Shown here one piece after another: positions 264-8,102 of a DNA stretch of 37,250 nucleotides. Below the pieces are notes generated by a model. That model was not told where the DNA came from. It saw only the letters and a list, made by a program, of their open reading frames with translations, and made no database searches. A program made the position numbers and the translations under genes. Numbering within the stretch: position 1 is the stretch's first letter; every line of letters starts with the position of its first letter. Source of the DNA: Bacteroidota bacterium (GTDB lineage: Bacteria > Bacteroidota > Bacteroidia > Bacteroidales > FEN-979); the NCBI GenBank assembly GCA_026391715.1, contig JAPLDO010000246.1, positions 1 to 37,250 of the forward strand. Direction: 5' to 3'.

Positions 264-298
264 TTTTGTTATTTACGAATGGTTCGAATGACGAATTA
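264..298. repeat. Simple repeat in phage gene leader (TTACGAAT / TTCGAATGACG)
   Basis: Short degenerate direct repeats of ATTTACGAATG and GAATTACGAATT lie just upstream of the partial gene and overlap the end of the preceding gene. A similar stretch precedes the capsid gene (3449-3487), so these leaders share a low-complexity sequence. Confidence 0.5.
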
Positions 299-775
299 CG
301 AATTGGTGGTGATGCGGAATCCTGATACCCGTCTGGAGGTTGGGATGGTGTATAGCGGGTAGTTTTGGGCTATGACGTATTCCTTTAAGATGGACTGTTT
401 GGCATAGGCGATCGAAAGTACCTCTTTGAGGGTGTCGCGGCGATGGCCGGGCGGGATCAGCACGGCGGTGGTTACTTCAATCAGCGATGGCGAGACGGCA
501 GGATCGGCGCCGGGGGTGTATTGGGCAGTTTCCAATAACTGCTGGTTGAGCAGCGAGGCTTTGACAAAAAAGGCAAGGCAGGGCTTGATGTACTCGCTGA
601 TCAGGATGGAGTAGTTGCCGGAATTGGTTACTACATCCGCATAAAGCGTGGAGGTAAGCACCGGTTTGATGTATTTGAGCTCGGCGGTCTGTATTACTTC
701 ATCCTTGACCAGGGTGCGGTCAATCTCGGTGAGATAGGCCAGAGAGATGACATCGGAGGCGGAGATCAGGGACAT
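296..775 (-). CDS. Putative phage head-tail connector/adaptor protein
   Basis: A 159-residue, mostly helical protein beginning MSLISASDVISLAYLTEIDRT. It lies between the portal gene upstream and another small structural gene downstream, the usual site of the gp6/gp15-like adaptor that docks under the portal. The opening resembles the 'xxLITxxDVxxx' start of connector proteins, and the middle (SEYIKPCLAFFVKASLL) forms amphipathic helices. There are no catalytic motifs. Family membership is inferred from gene order and size. It is probably cotranscribed with portal and capsid. Confidence 0.55.
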   Translation of the reverse strand: MSLISASDVISLAYLTEIDRTLVKDEVIQTAELKYIKPVLTSTLYADVVTNSGNYSILISEYIKPCLAFFVKASLLNQQLLETAQYTPGADPAVSPSLIEVTTAVLIPPGHRRDTLKEVLSIAYAKQSILKEYVIAQNYPLYTIPTSRRVSGFRITTNS

Positions 776-815
776 GGCAGATGGTGAAATGGTGTGATGG
801 TGAAATGGTGAAATA
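776..815. repeat. Short tandem repeat of ATGGTGAAAT type
   Basis: The gap between portal and connector genes is a degenerate tandem run of ATGGTGAAAT / GGTGTG. It reads ACCATTTCACC on the coding strand and forms the leader of the connector gene. There is no clear ribosome-binding site in it. Confidence 0.55.
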
Positions 816-2081
816 TCATGGCGCTGAGGGATTGGGGGTGACGTAGGTGTTTTGGAGCTGGAGGATCAGTACCTTTTGCGCAGGGTCGTTTTTATCGTAA
901 TCGAGGCCGGAGTCGCGGCGGACCTCCCAGACAAACTTCAGTGGGTTGATGCGGCTGATGGGCGGGGTGTTGATGAACTCAAAGTCTCGGATCACCAGGT
1001 TGCACTCGTAAAGCGAAGTTTGGAGCGACTGCAGGAAGATTTCCTGGATCGGGTGGATCACGGTGGTGATGGCGATTTCATATTCATTTAAAATTCTGCC
1101 GGAATCGAAACCGGATTTGTCGTCGGAATAGGGTGTCAATGTCCGGAACCAGTTGTGGATGGTGATCAGGGAGATTTCAGACTGCTTGTGCAGGTCGGTC
1201 CAGTTATCCTCCTTCTCTCGCTGGAATGAGATGAACTTGGCTTCCTGAGAGCTGATCCCCGGCCCAAGGTCGGAAAGGTACTGGATGATGATCTCATTGG
1301 CCTTGGAGCTCAGGGCACCTTTGTATTGCTGGAACATGGCGTCCAGCTCGTCGGCTGCCTCGTCGGAGTTCACCCCCGGAATGACCAGCAGTCCGGGAGT
1401 GGCAAACGACGATTCGAGGCGGGTCTGGTTCCAAATGTTGGTGAGACCAGAAATGATGATGTTGCGGATCCCGGCAAAGTAGGAAGGGATGCCATAATAG
1501 GTAAACTCAGGTTCATAATCCTTGATCTGGACCATGGCGTGAAGCAGCCCATCGCTGCCCTTGGAAAAGTCAGGAAACAAACTGACCGACCGGACCTCTT
1601 TATCCCCTTTTCCCTTAAACAGTGACCAGTCTGGTTGGATCAGCGCCTGTTTGCCATCCATGTGGAGCCGGACCCGGGAGGCATCCTGGTGGTAAATGAA
1701 AACGAAACTTCGCTTTTTGTTGGTGACCAGTTCATAATAGCAGTTGCCAAAGGTGAGGTAATCGAACACCAGTTTTTTCAGGGTGTACCAGAATGGCTCC
1801 TTGTGGTTGTTGGGAACCTCGATAAACTTTTGCGTGACAGGATCGGAAGATTGGATCCCCTGTCCGAGAATGTAGGTGGTTTTGGAATTGAGGATGGCCC
1901 GGTGGACCGGTACCTCCCGCGCCAGCTTGATCAGTTGGCGGGGAAGTGCATTGTCATCACCAAACGGGACAAAGTCCTGGTAATTGACCCTTTGGGCAAT
2001 GTGATCGGTATCGAACAGGTTGAGAACCGGCGAATAGTTAAACTCAAAAAACCTTGTCGTGTTGATCTGCTTGGAGGCCAT
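816..2081 (-). CDS. Phage portal protein
   Basis: A 421-residue protein of the size and layout of HK97/SPP1-like portals. The dodecameric portal forms the DNA entry channel of the capsid and docks the terminase. The N-terminal part (about 25-120) has the typical 'DNALPRQL..L...VPVHRAILNSKTTYILGQG' opening, in which a phage portal places a clip/wing helix after a membrane-like stretch. The region 'DYLTFGNCYYELV' at about 107-119 and the C-terminal helical crown 'GRILNEYEIAITTVIHPIQEIFLQSL' are also portal-like. It sits 17 bp downstream of the capsid gene on the same strand. A capsid-portal order following a protease/scaffold is consistent. Start chosen at the first ATG, just after the capsid stop. 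Confidence 0.8.
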   Translation of the reverse strand: MASKQINTTRFFEFNYSPVLNLFDTDHIAQRVNYQDFVPFGDDNALPRQLIKLAREVPVHRAILNSKTTYILGQGIQSSDPVTQKFIEVPNNHKEPFWYTLKKLVFDYLTFGNCYYELVTNKKRSFVFIYHQDASRVRLHMDGKQALIQPDWSLFKGKGDKEVRSVSLFPDFSKGSDGLLHAMVQIKDYEPEFTYYGIPSYFAGIRNIIISGLTNIWNQTRLESSFATPGLLVIPGVNSDEAADELDAMFQQYKGALSSKANEIIIQYLSDLGPGISSQEAKFISFQREKEDNWTDLHKQSEISLITIHNWFRTLTPYSDDKSGFDSGRILNEYEIAITTVIHPIQEIFLQSLQTSLYECNLVIRDFEFINTPPISRINPLKFVWEVRRDSGLDYDKNDPAQKVLILQLQNTYVTPNPSAP

Positions 2082-2098
2082 GTTACCAGGATTGAGAA

Positions 2099-3448
2099 TT
2101 AATCGCCAAAACCAGCCAGGATCATCAGCTCGGTGTGCAGGTAGGCGGTTTGTGCCTTGTACTGCACCCGGTAACGACGCATCTGCAGATCAGGGTTGTA
2201 CCAGGTCTCGACATCCTGCGGGTCCATCAGACCATCAGTACCGAAGATCAGGTTCTGCTGGGTGGTGAAGATGGCCCGGTGTGGCTGGATGCCATTCTGA
2301 TAACCGGAAATCCATGTATCCCAATCGGGACGGACCAGGATGGGGTAACCTTCGTAAGATGGCACGTTGACCCCGTTGAGCATCATGGTGAGCGGCAGAT
2401 CGCCGGTTTTACCCTTGATGGTGTGAACAAAGTTGCGCCACATGGAGCGGGTGACCATGAACACCAAGGGAAACTCGAACATCTCGGGACGGGCGGCATC
2501 GATCATTGAATCGAAGGTGGTGTCGGCCTCGTTGGCGCTCAGGGTGCTTGCCTTGACGGCAGAGACTGCCCCGGAAGCGGCAAACGTTCCGGAGCCATCG
2601 GCCACGGCGGTGAAGGTGAAGGCCTGACCCTTGTATTTGCCGACTACCTTGATCTGGGCACCAGTTGGATTGGTCACGATCACCCCGTTTATGCCTCCCC
2701 GGGCTTCGATGGTGGTTTTGTGCGCTGCCAGCCAGGCGGCCACGGTGGCGGTTGCACTGGATGCGTATGCCTGGGTGTAATCCTTGCCGTTGATGGTGAC
2801 GGTGATCAGCGTGTCGGTGTTGGCCGTATAGGTGAGAATTTTCTCAGCTTTGACGGCAGACACCGAAGAGGCGATCCCCACATGCTGCGCGGATGGAATG
2901 GTACCGGCATAAACATCATTGAAAAAGTGGGTCATAAAACCGGTGTACCCGGAAAAATCATCATCCACCGTACCGGTCGGGATACCCGAGGTCAGTTCCT
3001 CCTGCGTCGGGTTGGCAAAGAACATCTGGCGGATCAAGTCCTGTTGTCCAGCCTGGGCAATGATGGGCAACATGATCTTGTTCCAGACATCGGGTTCCTT
3101 CATCCGCTCCACGTCGTCCTCCTTGTAACCGGAGGCCAGCATCTGCTCGATGATGGACCCCCAGAAAGCCCGGCCGTTCTGCTCGAATTCCATGGCCATC
3201 GGCTGGACAGTGATGGAAGGGTGTGAAAGCGTAAAGGTGCCTGATGGGGTAAACCCCGGGTTTGCCTTGGGCTTGGTGATGAAACTTGGCCGGGAAATCT
3301 TGTTCAGTTTCTCGGTTCCTTTGATGTCGGTTCTGACGGTAATGGCGCCACGGATATCCTCGCCCATGAAAAATGGGTTGACAAAGAAATCACGGATTGA
3401 CTGCTTGGTGAAAGCAGGACTGACGGAGTGGGAAAAAATGTTGGACAT
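2099..3448 (-). CDS. Phage major capsid protein with inserted ~95-residue beta domain
   Basis: A 449-residue protein in the major-capsid position, between protease/scaffold and portal. The N-terminus (about 1-185: 'FFVNPFFMGEDIRGAITVRT', 'RAFWGSIIEQMLASG') and C-terminus (about 305-449: 'RPEMFEFPLVFMVTRSMWRNF', 'MRRYRVQYKAQTAYLHTELM') look like one capsid fold. Between them, about residues 201-294 form a Thr/Ala-rich beta domain with 'LITVTINGKDYTQAY'. The insert is bracketed by the same hexapeptide, VSAVKA, at 196-201 and 295-300, and by a matching DNA stretch (TTGACGGCAGA). This suggests an insertion or duplication into a surface loop. The insert may be a decoration or receptor-exposed domain (inference). 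Confidence 0.8.
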   Translation of the reverse strand: MSNIFSHSVSPAFTKQSIRDFFVNPFFMGEDIRGAITVRTDIKGTEKLNKISRPSFITKPKANPGFTPSGTFTLSHPSITVQPMAMEFEQNGRAFWGSIIEQMLASGYKEDDVERMKEPDVWNKIMLPIIAQAGQQDLIRQMFFANPTQEELTSGIPTGTVDDDFSGYTGFMTHFFNDVYAGTIPSAQHVGIASSVSAVKAEKILTYTANTDTLITVTINGKDYTQAYASSATATVAAWLAAHKTTIEARGGINGVIVTNPTGAQIKVVGKYKGQAFTFTAVADGSGTFAASGAVSAVKASTLSANEADTTFDSMIDAARPEMFEFPLVFMVTRSMWRNFVHTIKGKTGDLPLTMMLNGVNVPSYEGYPILVRPDWDTWISGYQNGIQPHRAIFTTQQNLIFGTDGLMDPQDVETWYNPDLQMRRYRVQYKAQTAYLHTELMILAGFGD

Positions 3449-3487
3449 GGTTTTTGGAATTACGATTTACGAATGACGATTTACGAT
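3449..3487. repeat. Simple repeat in capsid gene leader (ATTTACGA)
   Basis: Three to four imperfect copies of ATTTACGA / ATTACGA and one GAATGACG fill the gap between the protease and capsid genes and run slightly into the protease 3' end. The stretch resembles the leader repeat near 264-298. Confidence 0.55.
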
Positions 3488-4488
3488 TGATGAGTTGCCG
3501 GCCTTTTAAGTTTATCTTTCAGGTGGGCGGGTATTTGGCTGAGGAGCTGTTTGCCGAAGGTTTGTTCAGATGCACCGACCTTGATTTGCGGATCGGCAGC
3601 TTCGACGGTGGTTGGCCTGGCTGAGAGCTGATCCTGAAGGGTGGCGATTTGTTCGTTGAGCGCTGAAAGCTGCTTTTGATAATCGGTCTCCCTGGTTGCG
3701 AGCTGTCGCTGGTGATCCGCTTCGAGGGTTGAAATTTGCCCCTGGTAGTCGGCCTCCAGTTGCTCGATGGTCTGGTTGTACTGGTTCACCTTGTCCTGGT
3801 CAGCGCCATCGGATGCCGGGGTGATCAGGTTTTTCAATTTCTGGAAAAGTTCCTTTTTCATGGTTTGATTGTTTGAATAATACTTGAGCATAAATTCGAT
3901 GATGGTGTCAGGCTTGCGGGCGATGAGCTGGGCGATGGCCGGGTTGGTGTCCAGGAACTGCGTGGCCTGGTAGGAAAATGAATCAACGGCAAACAAAGAG
4001 TTGGTGGCGGCAGGATCATCCACCAGGTCGGTGGCCAGAAGCTGCTCGATGCGGGTGGATGGGTACTCGGCATCGGTGATCTGCGGTTCAGCCGGCACAA
4101 AGGCGATGGAGGCGCCAAACATGTCGGGGTTGTTCTTTGCCATTTTGACAATGTAATCGAATAGGTTCCCGGTGGGCGAATCCTTGCAGACATCATCCAG
4201 GTGAAGATCCCCGAATACCTTGTCGCCCTCGACCTGGAAATTTTTAAACCTCCCGATATAGGTGCCAAAGGAAGAGCTGCACATGTTCGGGTGGCCGAAA
4301 CGGGCTTTTATCCCTGCCTCCTTTGCATTGCCCAAGGCTTCAATCTGCGACAGGGTGGTAGCATCAATCTGCTCGAAATAGGATTTAACCTTGCCAGCCT
4401 GGGCAACCACAACTTTTTGCAGGATGCCGGTGTCGGGGTCGATTTTGGCGAAGGAAAAGGCGATGGGCGGGGTGGAGAATGACTTCAT
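3481..4488 (-). CDS. Phage prohead protease fused to coiled-coil scaffold
   Basis: About 335 residues from the ATG at 4488 (MKSFSTPPIAFSF). The N-terminal half carries a prohead-protease-like stretch: 'ARFGHPNMCSSSFGTYIGRF', 'GDKVFGDLHLDD', 'NPDMFGASIAFVP'. Its His and Ser are candidate catalytic residues, as in viral assembly proteases. The C-terminal 100 residues are a heptad-rich Gln/Glu/Leu coiled coil (four 'LEADYQ/DHQRQL'-type turns), as in a capsid scaffold. A protease-scaffold fusion just upstream of the capsid is common in tailed phages. An in-frame ATG at 4518 would add ten residues, but it lies only 9 bases from a good -7 box, so 4488 fits better. Confidence 0.75.
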   Translation of the reverse strand: MKSFSTPPIAFSFAKIDPDTGILQKVVVAQAGKVKSYFEQIDATTLSQIEALGNAKEAGIKARFGHPNMCSSSFGTYIGRFKNFQVEGDKVFGDLHLDDVCKDSPTGNLFDYIVKMAKNNPDMFGASIAFVPAEPQITDAEYPSTRIEQLLATDLVDDPAATNSLFAVDSFSYQATQFLDTNPAIAQLIARKPDTIIEFMLKYYSNNQTMKKELFQKLKNLITPASDGADQDKVNQYNQTIEQLEADYQGQISTLEADHQRQLATRETDYQKQLSALNEQIATLQDQLSARPTTVEAADPQIKVGASEQTFGKQLLSQIPAHLKDKLKRPATHQS

Positions 4489-4527
4489 ATTGACCAAAAA
4501 ATTAAATACCGCAAACATACAATTACT

Positions 4528-4557
4528 TAAAGTTATAGTTTAGTAAACATTGGCAAA
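4528..4557 (-). promoter_or_regulatory. Bacteroidetes-type promoter for the phage head operon
   Basis: Read leftwards, TTG (4554-4556) is followed by an 18-base spacer and TAACTTTA (4528-4535), one base off the TAnnTTTG consensus. It would start a leader of about 35 bases before the ATG at 4488. It is back-to-back with the rightward promoter near 4573-4603. Confidence 0.5.
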
Positions 4558-4572
4558 AACATATATAATAGA

Positions 4573-4603
4573 TTGTTATTGATTTGAAATAGTTGTAATT
4601 TTG
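4573..4603 (+). promoter_or_regulatory. Bacteroidetes-type promoter for the terminase genes
   Basis: TTG at 4573-4575, a 20-base spacer, then TAATTTTG at 4596-4603, a full match to the TAnnTTTG -7 box. The first gene starts 15 bases later. Together with the leftward promoter it makes this AT-rich 100-bp gap the divergent control point between packaging and head genes. Confidence 0.65.
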
Positions 4604-4617
4604 TAAGAAACGGCGAA

Positions 4618-4881
4618 ATGAACCCAGAGACAGAAAAGGTGATCAATGGTCTGCGTGACCACTTCGGGATTGAAGTTGAAGCGCTGGTGAAAAATGGTTT
4701 GCTACCGTTATCCTCGGCGAAGAAATGGCTGGTGAAACAGTTGTACTATTCTTATGCCCGGCAGGGAAACACCATTGACCAGGGCGGCAGGACTTACACA
4801 GATATTAAGAATGAGCTGAGCGCCGAATATGGGATCAGCATCAGCAGTATTGAAAAAATCATCTACCGGGACCGGAACTGA
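4618..4881 (+). CDS. Small phage DNA-binding protein, possible terminase small subunit
   Basis: An 87-residue protein beginning MNPETEKVINGLRDHFGIEVEALVKNG. The C-terminal half, 'TYTDIKNELSAEYGISISSIEKIIYRDRN', reads as a helix-turn-helix: a helix, a 'YGISISS' turn and a basic recognition helix. It is the first gene after the rightward promoter and two genes before the large terminase. A packaging-site recognition (small terminase) or regulatory role is inferred. The next gene competes for the same assignment. Confidence 0.6.
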   Translation: MNPETEKVINGLRDHFGIEVEALVKNGLLPLSSAKKWLVKQLYYSYARQGNTIDQGGRTYTDIKNELSAEYGISISSIEKIIYRDRN

Positions 4882-4925
4882 GGATTCGGCAGGATGACAA
4901 GTTGAACCATAAAATATGGGTAGAT

Positions 4926-5216
4926 ATGGTTGTAAAGAATGAAAAGGGACAGTTTGCCAAAGGTCATGGCGGCAAACCCAAAGGCGCCATCAACAAAACC
5001 ACGGCCGCCAACAAAGAGCGCATCGAGTTTGTGCTGGGTCTGCTGGATGAGAGCCTGGAAGAGGACGTTCAGAAGCTCAAACCCAAAGAACGGGTGGAAC
5101 TGTGGTCAACCCTGCAGGAGTTCATCCGGCCAAAGCTCCAGCGGATGAACCTGGACATTGCACCACCGGAAGACAAGGTGACCAAGATCACGTTCGAGGT
5201 TGTCAAGGGAAATTAA
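4926..5216 (+). CDS. Phage protein with 'KGQFAKGHGGKPKGA' start, probable small terminase-like
   Basis: About 96 residues from the ATG at 4926 (MVVKNEKGQFAKGHGG). The basic N-terminal signature GQFAKGHGGKPKGAINKTT is common in short proteins directly before large terminases. An acidic helical region (LGLLDESLEEDVQKLKPKERVELW) and a hydrophobic tail follow. Its stop lies 6 bp before the large terminase ATG, so the two are translationally close. A TTG at 4902 would add eight residues (MNHKIWVD) but has no better signal. Exact role (DNA recognition or terminase partner) is inferred. Confidence 0.65.
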   Translation: MVVKNEKGQFAKGHGGKPKGAINKTTAANKERIEFVLGLLDESLEEDVQKLKPKERVELWSTLQEFIRPKLQRMNLDIAPPEDKVTKITFEVVKGN

Positions 5217-5222
5217 CCAGGC

Positions 5223-6401
5223 ATGGAGAAGAAGATCCGGGTTTCGGTGGTCTTTGAGAAAAACTATGGCGCCAGGACAAAGATCGTGGTGAACCAGGGC
5301 GGCAGCCGGTCCGGAAAAACTTTTTCCATCCTACAACTGCTGATCTTAGTCAAGGCGTTTGAAGATACCGACATGGTTTTCTCCATTGTCCGCAAGAGCA
5401 TGCCGGCGCTGAAAGCCTCGGCCATGCGGGATTTTTTCGAGATCCTCCGGGCGAATGACCTTTACGATGAACGGAACCACAACAAGACTGAGAACACCTA
5501 TATATTAAATGGCAACCTCTTTGAGTTCATGAGCCTTGACCAGCCTCAGAAAAAGAGGGGCGCGAAGCGCGCCTTTCTTTTTATCAATGAGGCCAACGAA
5601 CTGAACCTGGAAGACTGGGTTCAATTGTCGCTCCGGACGGAAAAGCAGATTTTCATTGATTTCAACCCCTCGATGGATGAACACTGGATCTATGATGTGG
5701 TGATCCCCCGGCAGGATTGCACTTTCATCCATTCAACCTACCTGGACAATTTGCAGTTTTTGCCTGCGGAATTAGTCAAAGAGATTGAAAACCTGAAAAA
5801 TGTTGATGAAAATTACTGGCGGATTTACGGTCTGGGCGAGATCGGCCAGATCAAGGGGCTGATCTTTACCAACTGGGAGGTGGTGGATTCGTTCGCGCCG
5901 GATTGCAAGTGGATCAGCTACGGGATGGACTTCGGGTTCTCCAACGATCCGACTGCCCTGGTAAAGGTAGGGATGGCCGAAGGCCATCTCTACCTGGATG
6001 AATTGATTTATTCCCGGGGTCTGACCAATCCGGAAATATGCAAGTGGATGAACCAGTTGGGCATCACCAAGGCCGATGAGATCATCGCCGACAATCAGCC
6101 CAAGTGCATCCACGAAATCCGGCAGGAAGGGTTTAACATCAAGCCCACGTTCAAGGGGGCGGACTCGATCCTGGCCGGGATTGACATTCTCAAGCGGCAC
6201 CCGATCCGGATTACCAAGCGGTCGGTGAACCTGATCCGCGAGTTCAAGAACTACAAGTGGAAGGAAGATGCAGCCGGAAACCCGCTCAACGTTCCGGTGG
6301 ACCGGTTCAACCACGGGATCGACGGTCTGCGCTACGCCTGTCTGGGGCGGCTGTTCATGGGCAACCGGCTGGTGAAAACCAGCAGGATCCGGAACGGATA
6401 A
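5223..6401 (+). CDS. terL: Phage terminase large subunit (PBSX/terminase_3-like)
   Basis: A 392-residue packaging ATPase-nuclease, the motor that pumps phage DNA through the portal and cuts concatemers. Visible motifs: Walker A GGSRSGKT at 26-33; Walker B with catalytic Glu in LFINEAN at 119-125; the FNPS coupling-type motif at 147-150; and an RNase H-like nuclease with Asp236 (YGMDFGFS), Asp290 (IIADNQPK) and Asp367 (HGIDGLRYA), the three metal ligands expected. All motifs are present and the length is normal for the family, so it looks intact. It is the last gene of the rightward block; a long non-coding stretch follows. Confidence 0.93.
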   Translation: MEKKIRVSVVFEKNYGARTKIVVNQGGSRSGKTFSILQLLILVKAFEDTDMVFSIVRKSMPALKASAMRDFFEILRANDLYDERNHNKTENTYILNGNLFEFMSLDQPQKKRGAKRAFLFINEANELNLEDWVQLSLRTEKQIFIDFNPSMDEHWIYDVVIPRQDCTFIHSTYLDNLQFLPAELVKEIENLKNVDENYWRIYGLGEIGQIKGLIFTNWEVVDSFAPDCKWISYGMDFGFSNDPTALVKVGMAEGHLYLDELIYSRGLTNPEICKWMNQLGITKADEIIADNQPKCIHEIRQEGFNIKPTFKGADSILAGIDILKRHPIRITKRSVNLIREFKNYKWKEDAAGNPLNVPVDRFNHGIDGLRYACLGRLFMGNRLVKTSRIRNG

Positions 6402-6470: not shown

Positions 6471-6720
6471 TTAATTTTTTTTCTTAAAAAACATATACCA
6501 ATCCGGACACGGTAGCCAGGGCGGGGGGGCAAGGCTGGGGGTCATATTTTTTTACCAAAAGAAAAAAAACTGCCAACCGGAAATCAACTGATTGGTAAAG
6601 GGTTTATGCAGTTTTTTGATAAACAATTCAAAAAAATATGACAACACCCAACGGGCTTGGCCTTGCCCCCCCGACCGGGCTGCCGTACTTTCGTATATGT
6701 TTTTTAAAGAAAAAAAATTA
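6471..6720. repeat. Large imperfect inverted repeat (arms ~85-95 bp)
   Basis: The left arm (about 6471-6556) and right arm (about 6627-6720) are imperfect reverse complements. The outer part TAATTTTTTTTCTT plus AAAAACATATA is matched by TATATGTTTTTTAAAGAAAAAAAATTA. The middle part CGGGGGGGCAAGG is matched by CCTTGCCCCCCCG. The inner part GTCATATTTTTTT is matched by AAAAAAATATGAC. The central 70 bases hold a further small inverted repeat (AAAAAACTGC / GCAGTTTTTT). It could be a MITE-like element, a cruciform or a long RNA hairpin. Confidence 0.75.
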
Positions 6721-6771
6721 CCCCCCAGCCCTGTCCGGAATTAGGAAATACCTATAAGAAGAACACCTCAC

Positions 6772-6802
6772 CCGCGCGCTGCCCCGCAGGGGCAGGGCGC
6801 GG
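6772..6802. repeat. GC-rich hairpin at the head of the tandem structured units
   Basis: CCGCGC-G-CTGCCCC pairs with GGGGCAG-G-GCGCGG around a GCA loop: 13 base pairs with one G-G mismatch. It is followed directly by AACAGGG, the motif that opens each tandem unit. Confidence 0.7.
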
Positions 6803-6803
6803 A

Positions 6804-7450
6804 ACAGGGCTTGCAGACGGAGAAATCCATCCTCCCCGCGCTCGTGCGCTCTTCAGCACGTGGGCGGGGGCGACGAAAGGCTGGTGTACCCACTGCCGCT
6901 CGCTGGCCCCGAAGGGCGGCAAAGAATTGCGACTGGCAGAGGGATTGACCGCCGGAGGCGGTTTGCAGAGCAATTTTTTGTCCGGCCGAGTGGGACAGTG
7001 TGCGGCAAAACAGGGTAGGCGTTCCGGGAAAAACTTACACCACAGCCGCCGTGCGCTCTTTAGCACGGGGGCTGTGGCGACGCTCACGGCCACGCACTGC
7101 ACCCGAAGTGCGGCAAAGCATTGCGACTGGACGAGGGTTGATTGATGGGAGAAGGATTCAGAGCAATAGTTTTGCCGCGCGAGTGGTGCAGCGGGTGGCC
7201 AAACAGGGCTTATATTCCGGAAAAAACCAACACCACAGCCCGCTTGCGCTCTTTAGCAAGTGGGCTGTGGCGACGCTCATTGCCGCTCGCTGACCCGATG
7301 TGTGGCCATGAATTGCGACTGGTCGAGGATGTGGTAGCAAAATAATGGTACAGAGCAATTTAATGGACACGCGAGGGGCAGTGTGCGGCAAGACAATCCG
7401 TCTGAACGGAAAAAACCGATACCACCAACCGGCGGACGCTGGTTGGTGGA
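6804..7450. ncRNA. Tandem structured units (~193 bp, 3.5 copies), candidate non-coding RNA
   Basis: Units begin with ACAGGG at 6804, 7010 and 7203 (the fourth, ACAATC at about 7393, is partial). Each has CGGA(A)AAA, a long hairpin with loop GCTCTTTA/GCTCTTCA, GGCGACG, ATTGCGACTGG (6926, 7120, 7312) and CAGAGCAAT (6966, 7159, 7351). The hairpin stem differs between units but stays paired. Unit 2, 7040-7077, has CCACAGCC..CCGTGC / GCACGG..GGCTGTGG. Unit 3, 7233-7270, has a 15-bp stem with CTTGC / GCAAG. Unit 1, 6834-6869, has CCCCGC..CGTGC / GCACG..GCGGGG. Unit 4, 7422-7449, has CCACCAACC / GGTTGGTGG with a different loop. Paired changes suggest selection for structure. Strand and function are unknown. 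Confidence 0.45.
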
Positions 7451-7534
7451 GGTCGAGGGAATGGATGCGGGGAGTGTCGGTTTTGGTGATGGCTTGCGAA
7501 GAACTAACTCGTTCTGCCCGAAATACTGACAAAG

Positions 7535-7597
7535 GTTTGAGAAGCGACCTGAAAATGCTGAGTGACAGGTAGCGCGTTTAGTAGCACGTTCTCAAAC
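7535..7597. repeat. Two-level hairpin (GTTTGAGAA / TTCTCAAAC)
   Basis: A perfect 9-bp outer stem encloses an inner ACCTG (7546-7550) / CAGGT (7566-7570) stem and a short side arm. It lies just downstream of the tandem units and could be another domain of the same RNA. Confidence 0.55.
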
Positions 7598-7662
7598 TTC
7601 TAAATCTTCTCACGGGGATATTTAACATAATATGCTTATAGGACAGATGCAAGATAAAGAAT

Positions 7663-7755
7663 GGCAGCTAATGTAGAGGCTGCCGCAGTGGGCAGGTGGA
7701 AGTTGAGTAGCAGGATGACCTTTCAGCCCATTGCGGCTGCCGATCATTAGCTGCC
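7663..7755. repeat. Long nested hairpin, ~26 base pairs
   Basis: The outer stem GGCAGCTAATG / CATTAGCTGCC is perfect over 11 bp. The inner stem pairs 7678-7693 (GGCTGCCGCAGTGGGC) with 7726-7741 (GCCCATTGCGGCTGCC) as 14 Watson-Crick pairs, one G-T and one mismatch. The loop is about 32 bases. It is too long for a simple terminator and has no T-run. Likely an RNA domain or a mobile-element palindrome. Confidence 0.65.
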
Positions 7756-7875
7756 GTGGGGATTAGTAGATGGGAAAAACTTACATGCGGCTGTACTATA
7801 AGATCATGTTATGTTAATTAGACCGCTACTCGTCGTACTATGTTTTGGTGAATGTTGATTAGCAGGATCGTGTCC

Positions 7876-7941
7876 GCCACTTTAGTGGCACTTGACGGAG
7901 AGATTATTAGAAGGACGGTTTATGCCGCTTTAGCGGTCCTT
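7876..7941. repeat. Pair of hairpins with TTTA loops
   Basis: GCCAC-TTTA-GTGGC at 7876-7889 and CCGC-TTTA-GCGG at 7925-7936, the second enclosed by AAGGAC (7911-7916) / GTCCTT (7936-7941). The same CTTTAG loop context recurs in the tandem units (GCTCTTTA-GC) and in the element upstream of the ABC transporter gene (ACC-TTTA-GGT at 32191-32200). Confidence 0.55.
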
Positions 7942-8102
7942 GGAAAAGTGCGTATTAGTAGTGGTATCATTCAATGCGATCGCCCGATTAATAGAATTGC
8001 ATTACCGAATAGTCCTTTATAATTTCATCAATCGAATCATATATGCATCTACGGACTCTTATAATGCTCAGATCAAGGCATTTTGGACTGCATATGGGGA
8101 GT

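Follow-up and report, generated by a model that had tools for sequence, protein, structure and literature searches.

Directly after the large terminase gene (TerL) of a Bacteroidota contig lies a stretch of tandem repeats, which raises the question of what kind of element follows a gene for DNA packaging. The window, that is the whole stretch of DNA analysed (37,250 nucleotides of contig JAPLDO010000246.1), had been read from its letters in an earlier note, which placed RNA-like units with changes on both sides of their stems at positions 6771-7450 and proposed an undescribed large RNA of a Bacteroidetes phage or element. The features located in the window are collected in Table 1.

Table 1 Positions and supporting evidence for the features located in the window
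Feature	Position	Strand	Evidence
Portal protein	816-2081	-	phrog_11226, 1.2e-14
Probable major capsid protein	2099-3448	-	No Pfam match above cut-off
Head scaffold/protease	3481-4518	-	phrog_73, 1.6e-6
Small terminase-like protein	4902-5216	+	Position; cluster of 6 members; weak DUF5681 match (0.068)
Large terminase TerL, directly upstream of the element	5223-6401	+	Terminase_3, 4.4e-24; phrog_2, 8e-39
5' palindromic module	6475-6716	+	Nested inverted arms 6475-6501/6690-6716 and 6509-6535/6660-6686; conserved core 6529-6656
G+C-rich hairpin before the array	6771-6802	+	Sequence and fold
Long hairpin, unit 1	6829-6876	+	5-copy alignment, pair counts
Second domain, unit 1: ATTGCGACTGG...CAGAGCAAT stem, GAGTGGGACAG motif	6891-7012	+	Direct repeats
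Long hairpin, unit 2	7036-7083	+	5-copy alignment, pair counts
Second domain, unit 2	7085-7205	+	Direct repeats
Long hairpin, unit 3	7229-7276	+	5-copy alignment, pair counts
Second domain, unit 3	7278-7395	+	Direct repeats
Hairpin of the partial fourth unit	7422-7449	+	Inverted repeat, position
Conserved 3' module, covariance model R1	7570-7855	+	E 2e-36 in own genome, with a model containing the window sequence
Core hairpin, 5' arm (TTAACATAA + NTTATAN)	7622-7641	+	Pairing in 17/17 loci, tree null
Core hairpin, 3' arm, with an extra 2-nt bulge	7796-7817	+	Pair counts, tree null
3' tail with small hairpins	7818-7942	+	Resembles the C165 copy (blastn to L005)

The tandem units and their long hairpin

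The tandem units of about 193 bp are present as described, with a period of 193, 2.2 copies and a 77% match. A 36-nt motif common to three units starts at 6907, 7101 and 7293 (spacings of 194 and 192), the 58-nt hairpin blocks start at 6818, 7025 and 7218, and a partial fourth unit follows the three full ones within 6771-7450. The arm differences read between the units are found as well: GTGC/GCAC of unit 2 becomes TTGC/GCAA in unit 3, and unit 1 has CCCCGC/GCGGGG where units 2 and 3 have CCACAGCC/GGCTGTGG. While the units and arm changes were correctly described, the loop was not shared by all of them as had been claimed, that of unit 1 being GCTCTTCA and not GCTCTTTA.

The long hairpin was aligned in five copies, three from the window and two from another contig of the same genome (C165). 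Its pairs form in 93.8% of the cells, and the double-sided stem changes claimed for it are seen in 5 of 13 pairs. When compared with 500 shuffles, the covariation score and the percentage paired were never reached (0/500 for both), while the number of double-sided pairs was reached by 12/500 and that of pair types by 27/500; the true register outscored all six slid registers. Among 18 loci scanned, the loop of this hairpin occurs only in the window and C165, so the array appears to be a local domain duplication: we take the 193-bp units to be a local tandem duplication of two RNA domains in the lineage of the window, the middle of the element differing between lineages. By eye, motifs resembling those of the second domain are also recognisable in other copies of the element. 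The copy number of units would vary while each stem stays paired.

Extent of the element

The limits 6771-7450 proved too narrow, as the element spans from about 6475 to about 7945. A second copy is found on contig C165 of the window's genome and a third in a relative (G006:C362). When the three copies are compared, the conserved parts are the 5' palindrome (6475-6716) and the 3' module (7570-7855), not the array. The three tandem units form the repeated central section of a longer noncoding element, and its conserved heart lies 3' of 6771-7450.

The core of the 5' module occurs with different arms in 12 distinct sequences, among which 19 of the 47 consensus pairs are changed on both sides. 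The palindrome lies about 20 kb (C63) and about 13 kb (C154) upstream of the RNA core in two cases, and the module also stands alone. The covariance model of the 3' module, R1, was built from 17 of 18 near-locus sequences (L048 was left out). Further downstream, 13 of 21 near loci share a 3' terminus, ...GGATTAGCGGTTGCGGAGGG or a close variant of it, which lies 388-523 nt past the start of the core, is not dif-like and is directly followed by unrelated sequence; this terminus is absent from the window, from C165 and from six other near loci. One copy (L250, ~6980-7320, in G032:C54) is truncated on its 5' side, within the 3' arm of the core hairpin, and has a nearly usual 3' end. Genes resembling toxin-antitoxin systems on reading (L005, 8478-9019 and 11030-11311) flank the degraded C165 copy. 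The right end of the window's contig (36552-37250) carries a further tandem array, with a 270-bp unit, 2.6 copies and a 91% match.

Palindromes standing alone, together with the truncation of L250 at its 5' side only, are what would be expected of a noncoding passenger that is itself mobile, like a MITE or a retroposon, and has settled at the ends of prophages and other small elements, with a structure serving its own spread. A copy without phage block (L072) fits such a passenger, and so does the 3' end common to 13 of 21 near loci, given that no shared left end was seen among five prophage left flanks. Against it, no target-site duplication was found by eye, and the tie to the terminase presented below is strong; we consider this explanation quite unlikely.

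Covariation of the core hairpin

The 3' module contains a core hairpin with the pattern TTAACATAA-NTG-NTTATAN ... NTATAAN-NN-CATG-TTATGTTAA. All of its 16 pairs form in 17 of 17 near loci (100% of 272 cells), and two of them each show three standard states. The covariation score and the number of double-sided cells were reached by none of 500 shuffles, while the number of changed pairs (263/500) and the pair types (297/500) did not exceed them. An alignment of 29 core sequences, including four phage contigs, is 92.5% paired, with double-sided change in 9 of 22 pairs; the number of double-sided pairs was reached by 2/500 shuffles and the score by 0/500, while the pair types were again not above the shuffles (175/500).

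The covariation test that had been suggested was carried out in a form similar to R-scape, using the G statistic with APC and a null in which the inferred substitutions were placed randomly on the FastTree tree (200 simulations). For the core, 34 distinct sequences out of 36 near and distant ones were used, three poor matches to the regular expression (L119, L120 and L115) having been dropped beforehand. Significance was reached by just two column pairs; each lies in the core helix and pairs in 34 of 34 sequences. The expectation of covariation was thus borne out by the core hairpin. In the full-length alignments, of 10 and 8 sequences, and in the 5' module (12 sequences) no pair was significant by the tree null. 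Significance therefore rests on the core and array hairpins, and covarying structure, by which a large ornate RNA is judged, is supported for these two.

Coding potential and known families

The spacings of 194 and 192 between units do not keep a reading frame, as had been pointed out in the earlier note. The open reading frames over the array are 97, 116 and 124 aa long, and the two that were searched (7000-7293 on the + strand and 7158-7532 on the - strand) have no match in PHROGs, so that the protein-coding family named there as counter-evidence was not found. In the window's element, open stretches extend over 145 and 166 codons at the longest, within the range of shuffled sequences (mean 93, maximum 183). 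On the grounds of the frame-breaking spacings, the lack of a family for the two frames and the length of these stretches, a protein-coding repeat was rejected. At another locus (L065), one open stretch of 222 codons is longer than the shuffled maximum of 136; the open reading frames listed for L060, which is 94% identical to L065, include no counterpart of it.

No Rfam family matched at gathering score in the window or in 12 loci, and none did so up to an E value of 0.5 in 6 loci; in the element region, other families were at chance level only. Membership in GOLLD, ROOL or OLE was rejected, as their covariance models gave no match in these searches. A tRNA island was discarded since there is no tRNA gene in the window, and a known phage or plasmid was discarded since there is no DNA match in the annotated phage and plasmid collections. 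No earlier description of the element was found in Rfam or in the available parts of the literature searched.

The folded strand

Both strands of a 740-nt stretch fold below shuffled sequences (20 shuffles), the + strand with -380 kcal/mol (z -8.8) and the - strand with -320 kcal/mol (z -11.6), so that the better z-score belongs to the - strand. The strands were also compared by counting single mismatches with at least four Watson-Crick pairs on either side. Over 18 loci, which are related so that the counts are not independent, G.T was found 47 times, A.C 12 times and other mismatches 115 times, compared with 12.7, 10.7 and 46.8 in dinucleotide shuffles. The corresponding counts for 10 distant loci are 15, 3 and 67 (shuffles: 9.8, 6.3 and 31.8), and those for unrelated window DNA are 28, 22 and 92. 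Read on the terminase strand, G.T and the other mismatches thus exceed the shuffled level, unlike A.C. Because G.T outnumbers A.C 47 to 12 inside helices, the folded molecule is most likely the single-stranded + strand, with RNA as the natural candidate and folded single-stranded DNA as the alternative. Among 26 four-base loops in 13 loci, tetraloops showed no excess on either strand (GNRA: 0 on + and 1 on -; UNCG: 0 on both), and a scan of the element for Bacteroidetes-type promoters gave nothing better than shuffles.

As DNA, the core hairpin could be a recombination site consisting of two inverted dif-like arms, folded as a single strand and joined to the chromosome by the host's XerC/XerD, much as happens with the attP of CTXphi or with integron attC sites; this would be why the elements lack an integrase. 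Each arm of the hairpin does read ATAA-spacer-TTAT, and the right arm ends in what we take to be the manner of the E. coli XerD box. One exact dif-like site, ATAATTAATATTATGTTAA(AT), is present in the window's own genome (G000:C20:654-672, L269). It also counts for a Xer site that Bacteroidetes Microviridae proviruses are reported to use dif-like sites, some of them with an additional one (PMC3091885). The position of the hairpin argues otherwise, as it is internal and not at the junction of element and host, being flanked left and right by conserved sequence in the 17 near loci that were aligned, and the shared 3' terminus found beyond it in 13 of 21 near loci is not dif-like. Moreover, its two spacers are unequal in length, the dif-like pattern with at most one mismatch is rarer in the genome than its reversed control (15 vs 48), and a Xer site would have no need of the other hairpins, which extend over more than 1 kb and share the G.T bias. 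A role as DNA is therefore rather unlikely; if it were true, junctions and packaged ends would be expected at the hairpin or at ...GGTTGCGGAGGG.

Association with the terminase

Out of 43 genomes of the family, 9 have TerL, 10 have the 3' module and 8 have both (Fisher 2.7e-6). Each positive genome holds one to five matches to the element, a number that would suit a mobile passenger. TerL occurs in 21 places, of which 17 have enough downstream sequence to be testable, and the RNA lies at most 2 kb downstream in 14 of these. For three of the 14 the evidence is a short 5' fragment at the end of a contig (G008:C40, G008:C132 and G009:C541), and in one other, the C165 copy (G000:C165), TerL is degraded and the RNA lies 1.8 kb on. 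No RNA follows TerL in the remaining three places (G008:C38, G035:C37 and G034:C103), where the next open reading frame begins about 200, 40 and 5 bp past the TerL stop, respectively. That prophages without the RNA end near the terminase is also what insertion of a passenger would leave.

Adjoining TerL on the same strand, the element could, instead of being a free RNA, mark where packaging starts (pac) or serve as a regulatory 3' UTR in the terminase mRNA. The other sequence starting directly past its end in 13 of 21 near loci agrees with this, while the cores seen with no terminase nearby (L072, L118, L126, L127 and L328) do not, and we hold it to be very unlikely.

The late-gene prophage

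The late-gene block of the window (296-6401) comprises the portal, scaffold/protease, probable capsid and large terminase genes, and the contig starts inside it. The 449-aa capsid candidate has a weak tblastn match to an XkdG-annotated protein of phage BS-TP3 (28.7% over 29% of the query, 6e-9), and its AlphaFold model, from 5 sequences, has a mean pLDDT of 33. Homologous loci repeat the block with tail spike, holin-like and endolysin genes on its left (GH108 was tested in one copy). A complete prophage of about 10.6 kb lies between host genes in G066:C63, which has the same coordinates as G032:C63. In this prophage no integrase or replication gene was recognised on reading the open reading frames, and in the complete prophages of relatives likewise only late genes were recognised (lysis, tail spike, portal, probable capsid, scaffold and terminase). 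The failure to recognise an integrase in the prophages, where the open reading frames were read and part of them searched against families, is also in favour of a Xer site.

The possibility that these are decayed prophages was rejected, as the median dN/dS values, from pairs with computable dS and with dS near saturation, lie between 0.04 and 0.08: 0.041 for TerL (20 pairs), 0.079 for the portal (19), 0.053 for the capsid candidate (30) and 0.069 for the tail spike (15). Prophages of this type, of about 10.6 kb and under purifying selection, occur as several diverged copies per genome (G066/G032:C63, corresponding to L063 and L064; G064/G029:C154; G035:C42; and others). Directly to the left of the one in G035:C42 are a methyltransferase-like gene and other defence-like genes, as judged by reading (L245, 5563-10633).

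Cores in other phages and distant elements

When species genomes were scanned with the pattern, 17 stretches were obtained, mostly from Bacteroidales, of which 12 have both arms; the other five (L014, L019, L020, L026 and L028) were dropped on inspection for a missing second arm. The core pattern is also matched by three IMG/VR contigs. The core lies in a noncoding stretch directly after TerL in three phage contigs (L159, L160 and L161), and in L163 a convergent TerL of phrog_15 (GpA) ends 48 bp away from it. The terminase of L159 belongs to phrog_38 and is accompanied by a Mu-type portal, while that of L160 belongs to phrog_2/3717, with L161 being 85% identical. That phage contigs with terminases of three families have the core in this same position, in addition to the tie within the family, is difficult to reconcile with a mere passenger. 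Both L160 and L161, which are contigs of IMG/VR, have the same late-gene order, after which come about 0.6 kb of noncoding sequence containing the core and then primase/helicase-like genes. These two are relatives of the prophages and possibly represent the complete small phage. The hairpin test was applied to terminase relatives from IMG/VR (the best 80 of 532) and passed by five, two being known loci and three being AT-rich sequences which, by eye, we attribute to chance. One viral pattern scan gave no match, and none of the 54 stretches from a viral scan with the DUF6266 alignment was confirmed.

A model of the core, R2, found matches in 25 of 374 genomes of the order and in 19 of 365 genomes of the phylum, the window's own genome included in both; as R2 scores self-complementary hairpins on both strands, match counts are inflated, unlike these genome counts. 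Recurrent proteins are found near distant cores, namely DUF6266 (L118, L126, L127, L328 and L331), DUF6943 (L328, L331, L333 and L334) and a protein like that of L162 (L123, L124, L137 and L162), as well as a J-domain protein of phrog_15863 next to L118. No paper naming DUF6266 or DUF6943 was found in the literature searched. DUF6266 occurs in 12 of 295 genomes of the class. The hairpin regular expression found nothing in 18 DUF6266 loci; it was too strict, since in G523:C1 and G496:C1 R2 later located hairpins at distances of 0.7 and 1.3 kb from DUF6266, respectively. Pairs of tyrosine recombinases stand beside 2 of 20 distant loci (L135 and L136), and some distant loci have hairpins in inverted pairs, both of which would be in keeping with recombination at the hairpin.

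In several small elements (L328, at G523:C1:458600-467200, L331, L333, L334 and L336), DUF6266, DUF6943, DUF5675, holin-like or L162-like proteins are encoded near the hairpin, and in G523:C1 hairpins in inverted orientation flank the small-element proteins. RHS/YD-repeat type proteins, with a C-terminal motif identified by reading, lie near other distant hairpins (L105/L125, L116, L117, L330 and L338).

Proposed function and comparison with known systems

The undescribed large phage or element RNA proposed in the earlier note is favoured by homologues with covariation, the wobble excess of the + strand, the lack of an Rfam family and the place after the terminase in several phages. In the reading we prefer, with a probability of about 0.58, the tandem units are the central part of a structured noncoding RNA, large (~1.0-1.6 kb) and modular, which is encoded on the + strand directly 3' of TerL, at the right-hand end of the prophage, and which would have its role late in the cycle. 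The best-supported interpretation is a new family of large structured RNAs from phages and small mobile elements in Bacteroidota. The 5' palindrome standing alone in two loci and the better z-score of the - strand slightly lowered our confidence in it and slightly raised that in a passenger. The RNA would be transcribed with or after the terminase and, as its position beside that gene suggests, would act late in the cycle, most likely in forming or loading particles or in otherwise propagating the element, perhaps as imagined for the packaging RNA of phi29 or for GOLLD/ROOL cages.

A broader and doubtful proposal is that this giant RNA, with its core hairpin, could be a common propagation determinant of Bacteroidota mobile elements that have no recognised integrase or replicase, from the late-gene mini-prophages to the elements that have only DUF6266/DUF6943-type proteins and lysis genes. 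Its RNA or DNA form would direct packaging or integration, with minimal elements borrowing functions of the host or of a helper phage.

Few large structured RNAs are known from phages, with functions that are still poorly understood, and this family gives a concrete place in the phage cycle at which to test one. The core is found beside three types of terminase, does not occur in every prophage copy and is also present with tiny elements, which provides natural plus/minus pairs. The family also draws attention to late-gene prophages that are under strong purifying selection.

The packaging RNA of phi29 is a phage RNA tied to DNA packaging and encoded by a small phage. The element described here is similar in its possible link to packaging, which is drawn from its position, and differs in being several times longer and in having no Rfam match. 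GOLLD and ROOL are described as large ornate RNAs of phages and prophages with a function that is not understood (Nature 2025, PMC12286853). The present element resembles them as a large structured RNA of phages and prophages; in contrast to them, it has no Rfam match and no tRNA gene in the window, comes from Bacteroidota, carries tandem arrays of domains and adjoins the terminase. The core hairpin, finally, is like the attP of CTXphi and the attC of integrons in its paired arms resembling recombinase boxes, its variable loop and the extra unpaired bases on one arm (in part PMC3091885). Unlike those sites, it lies inside the element and not at its junction, has unequal spacers and, in the near loci, is set within about 1 kb of structured sequence.
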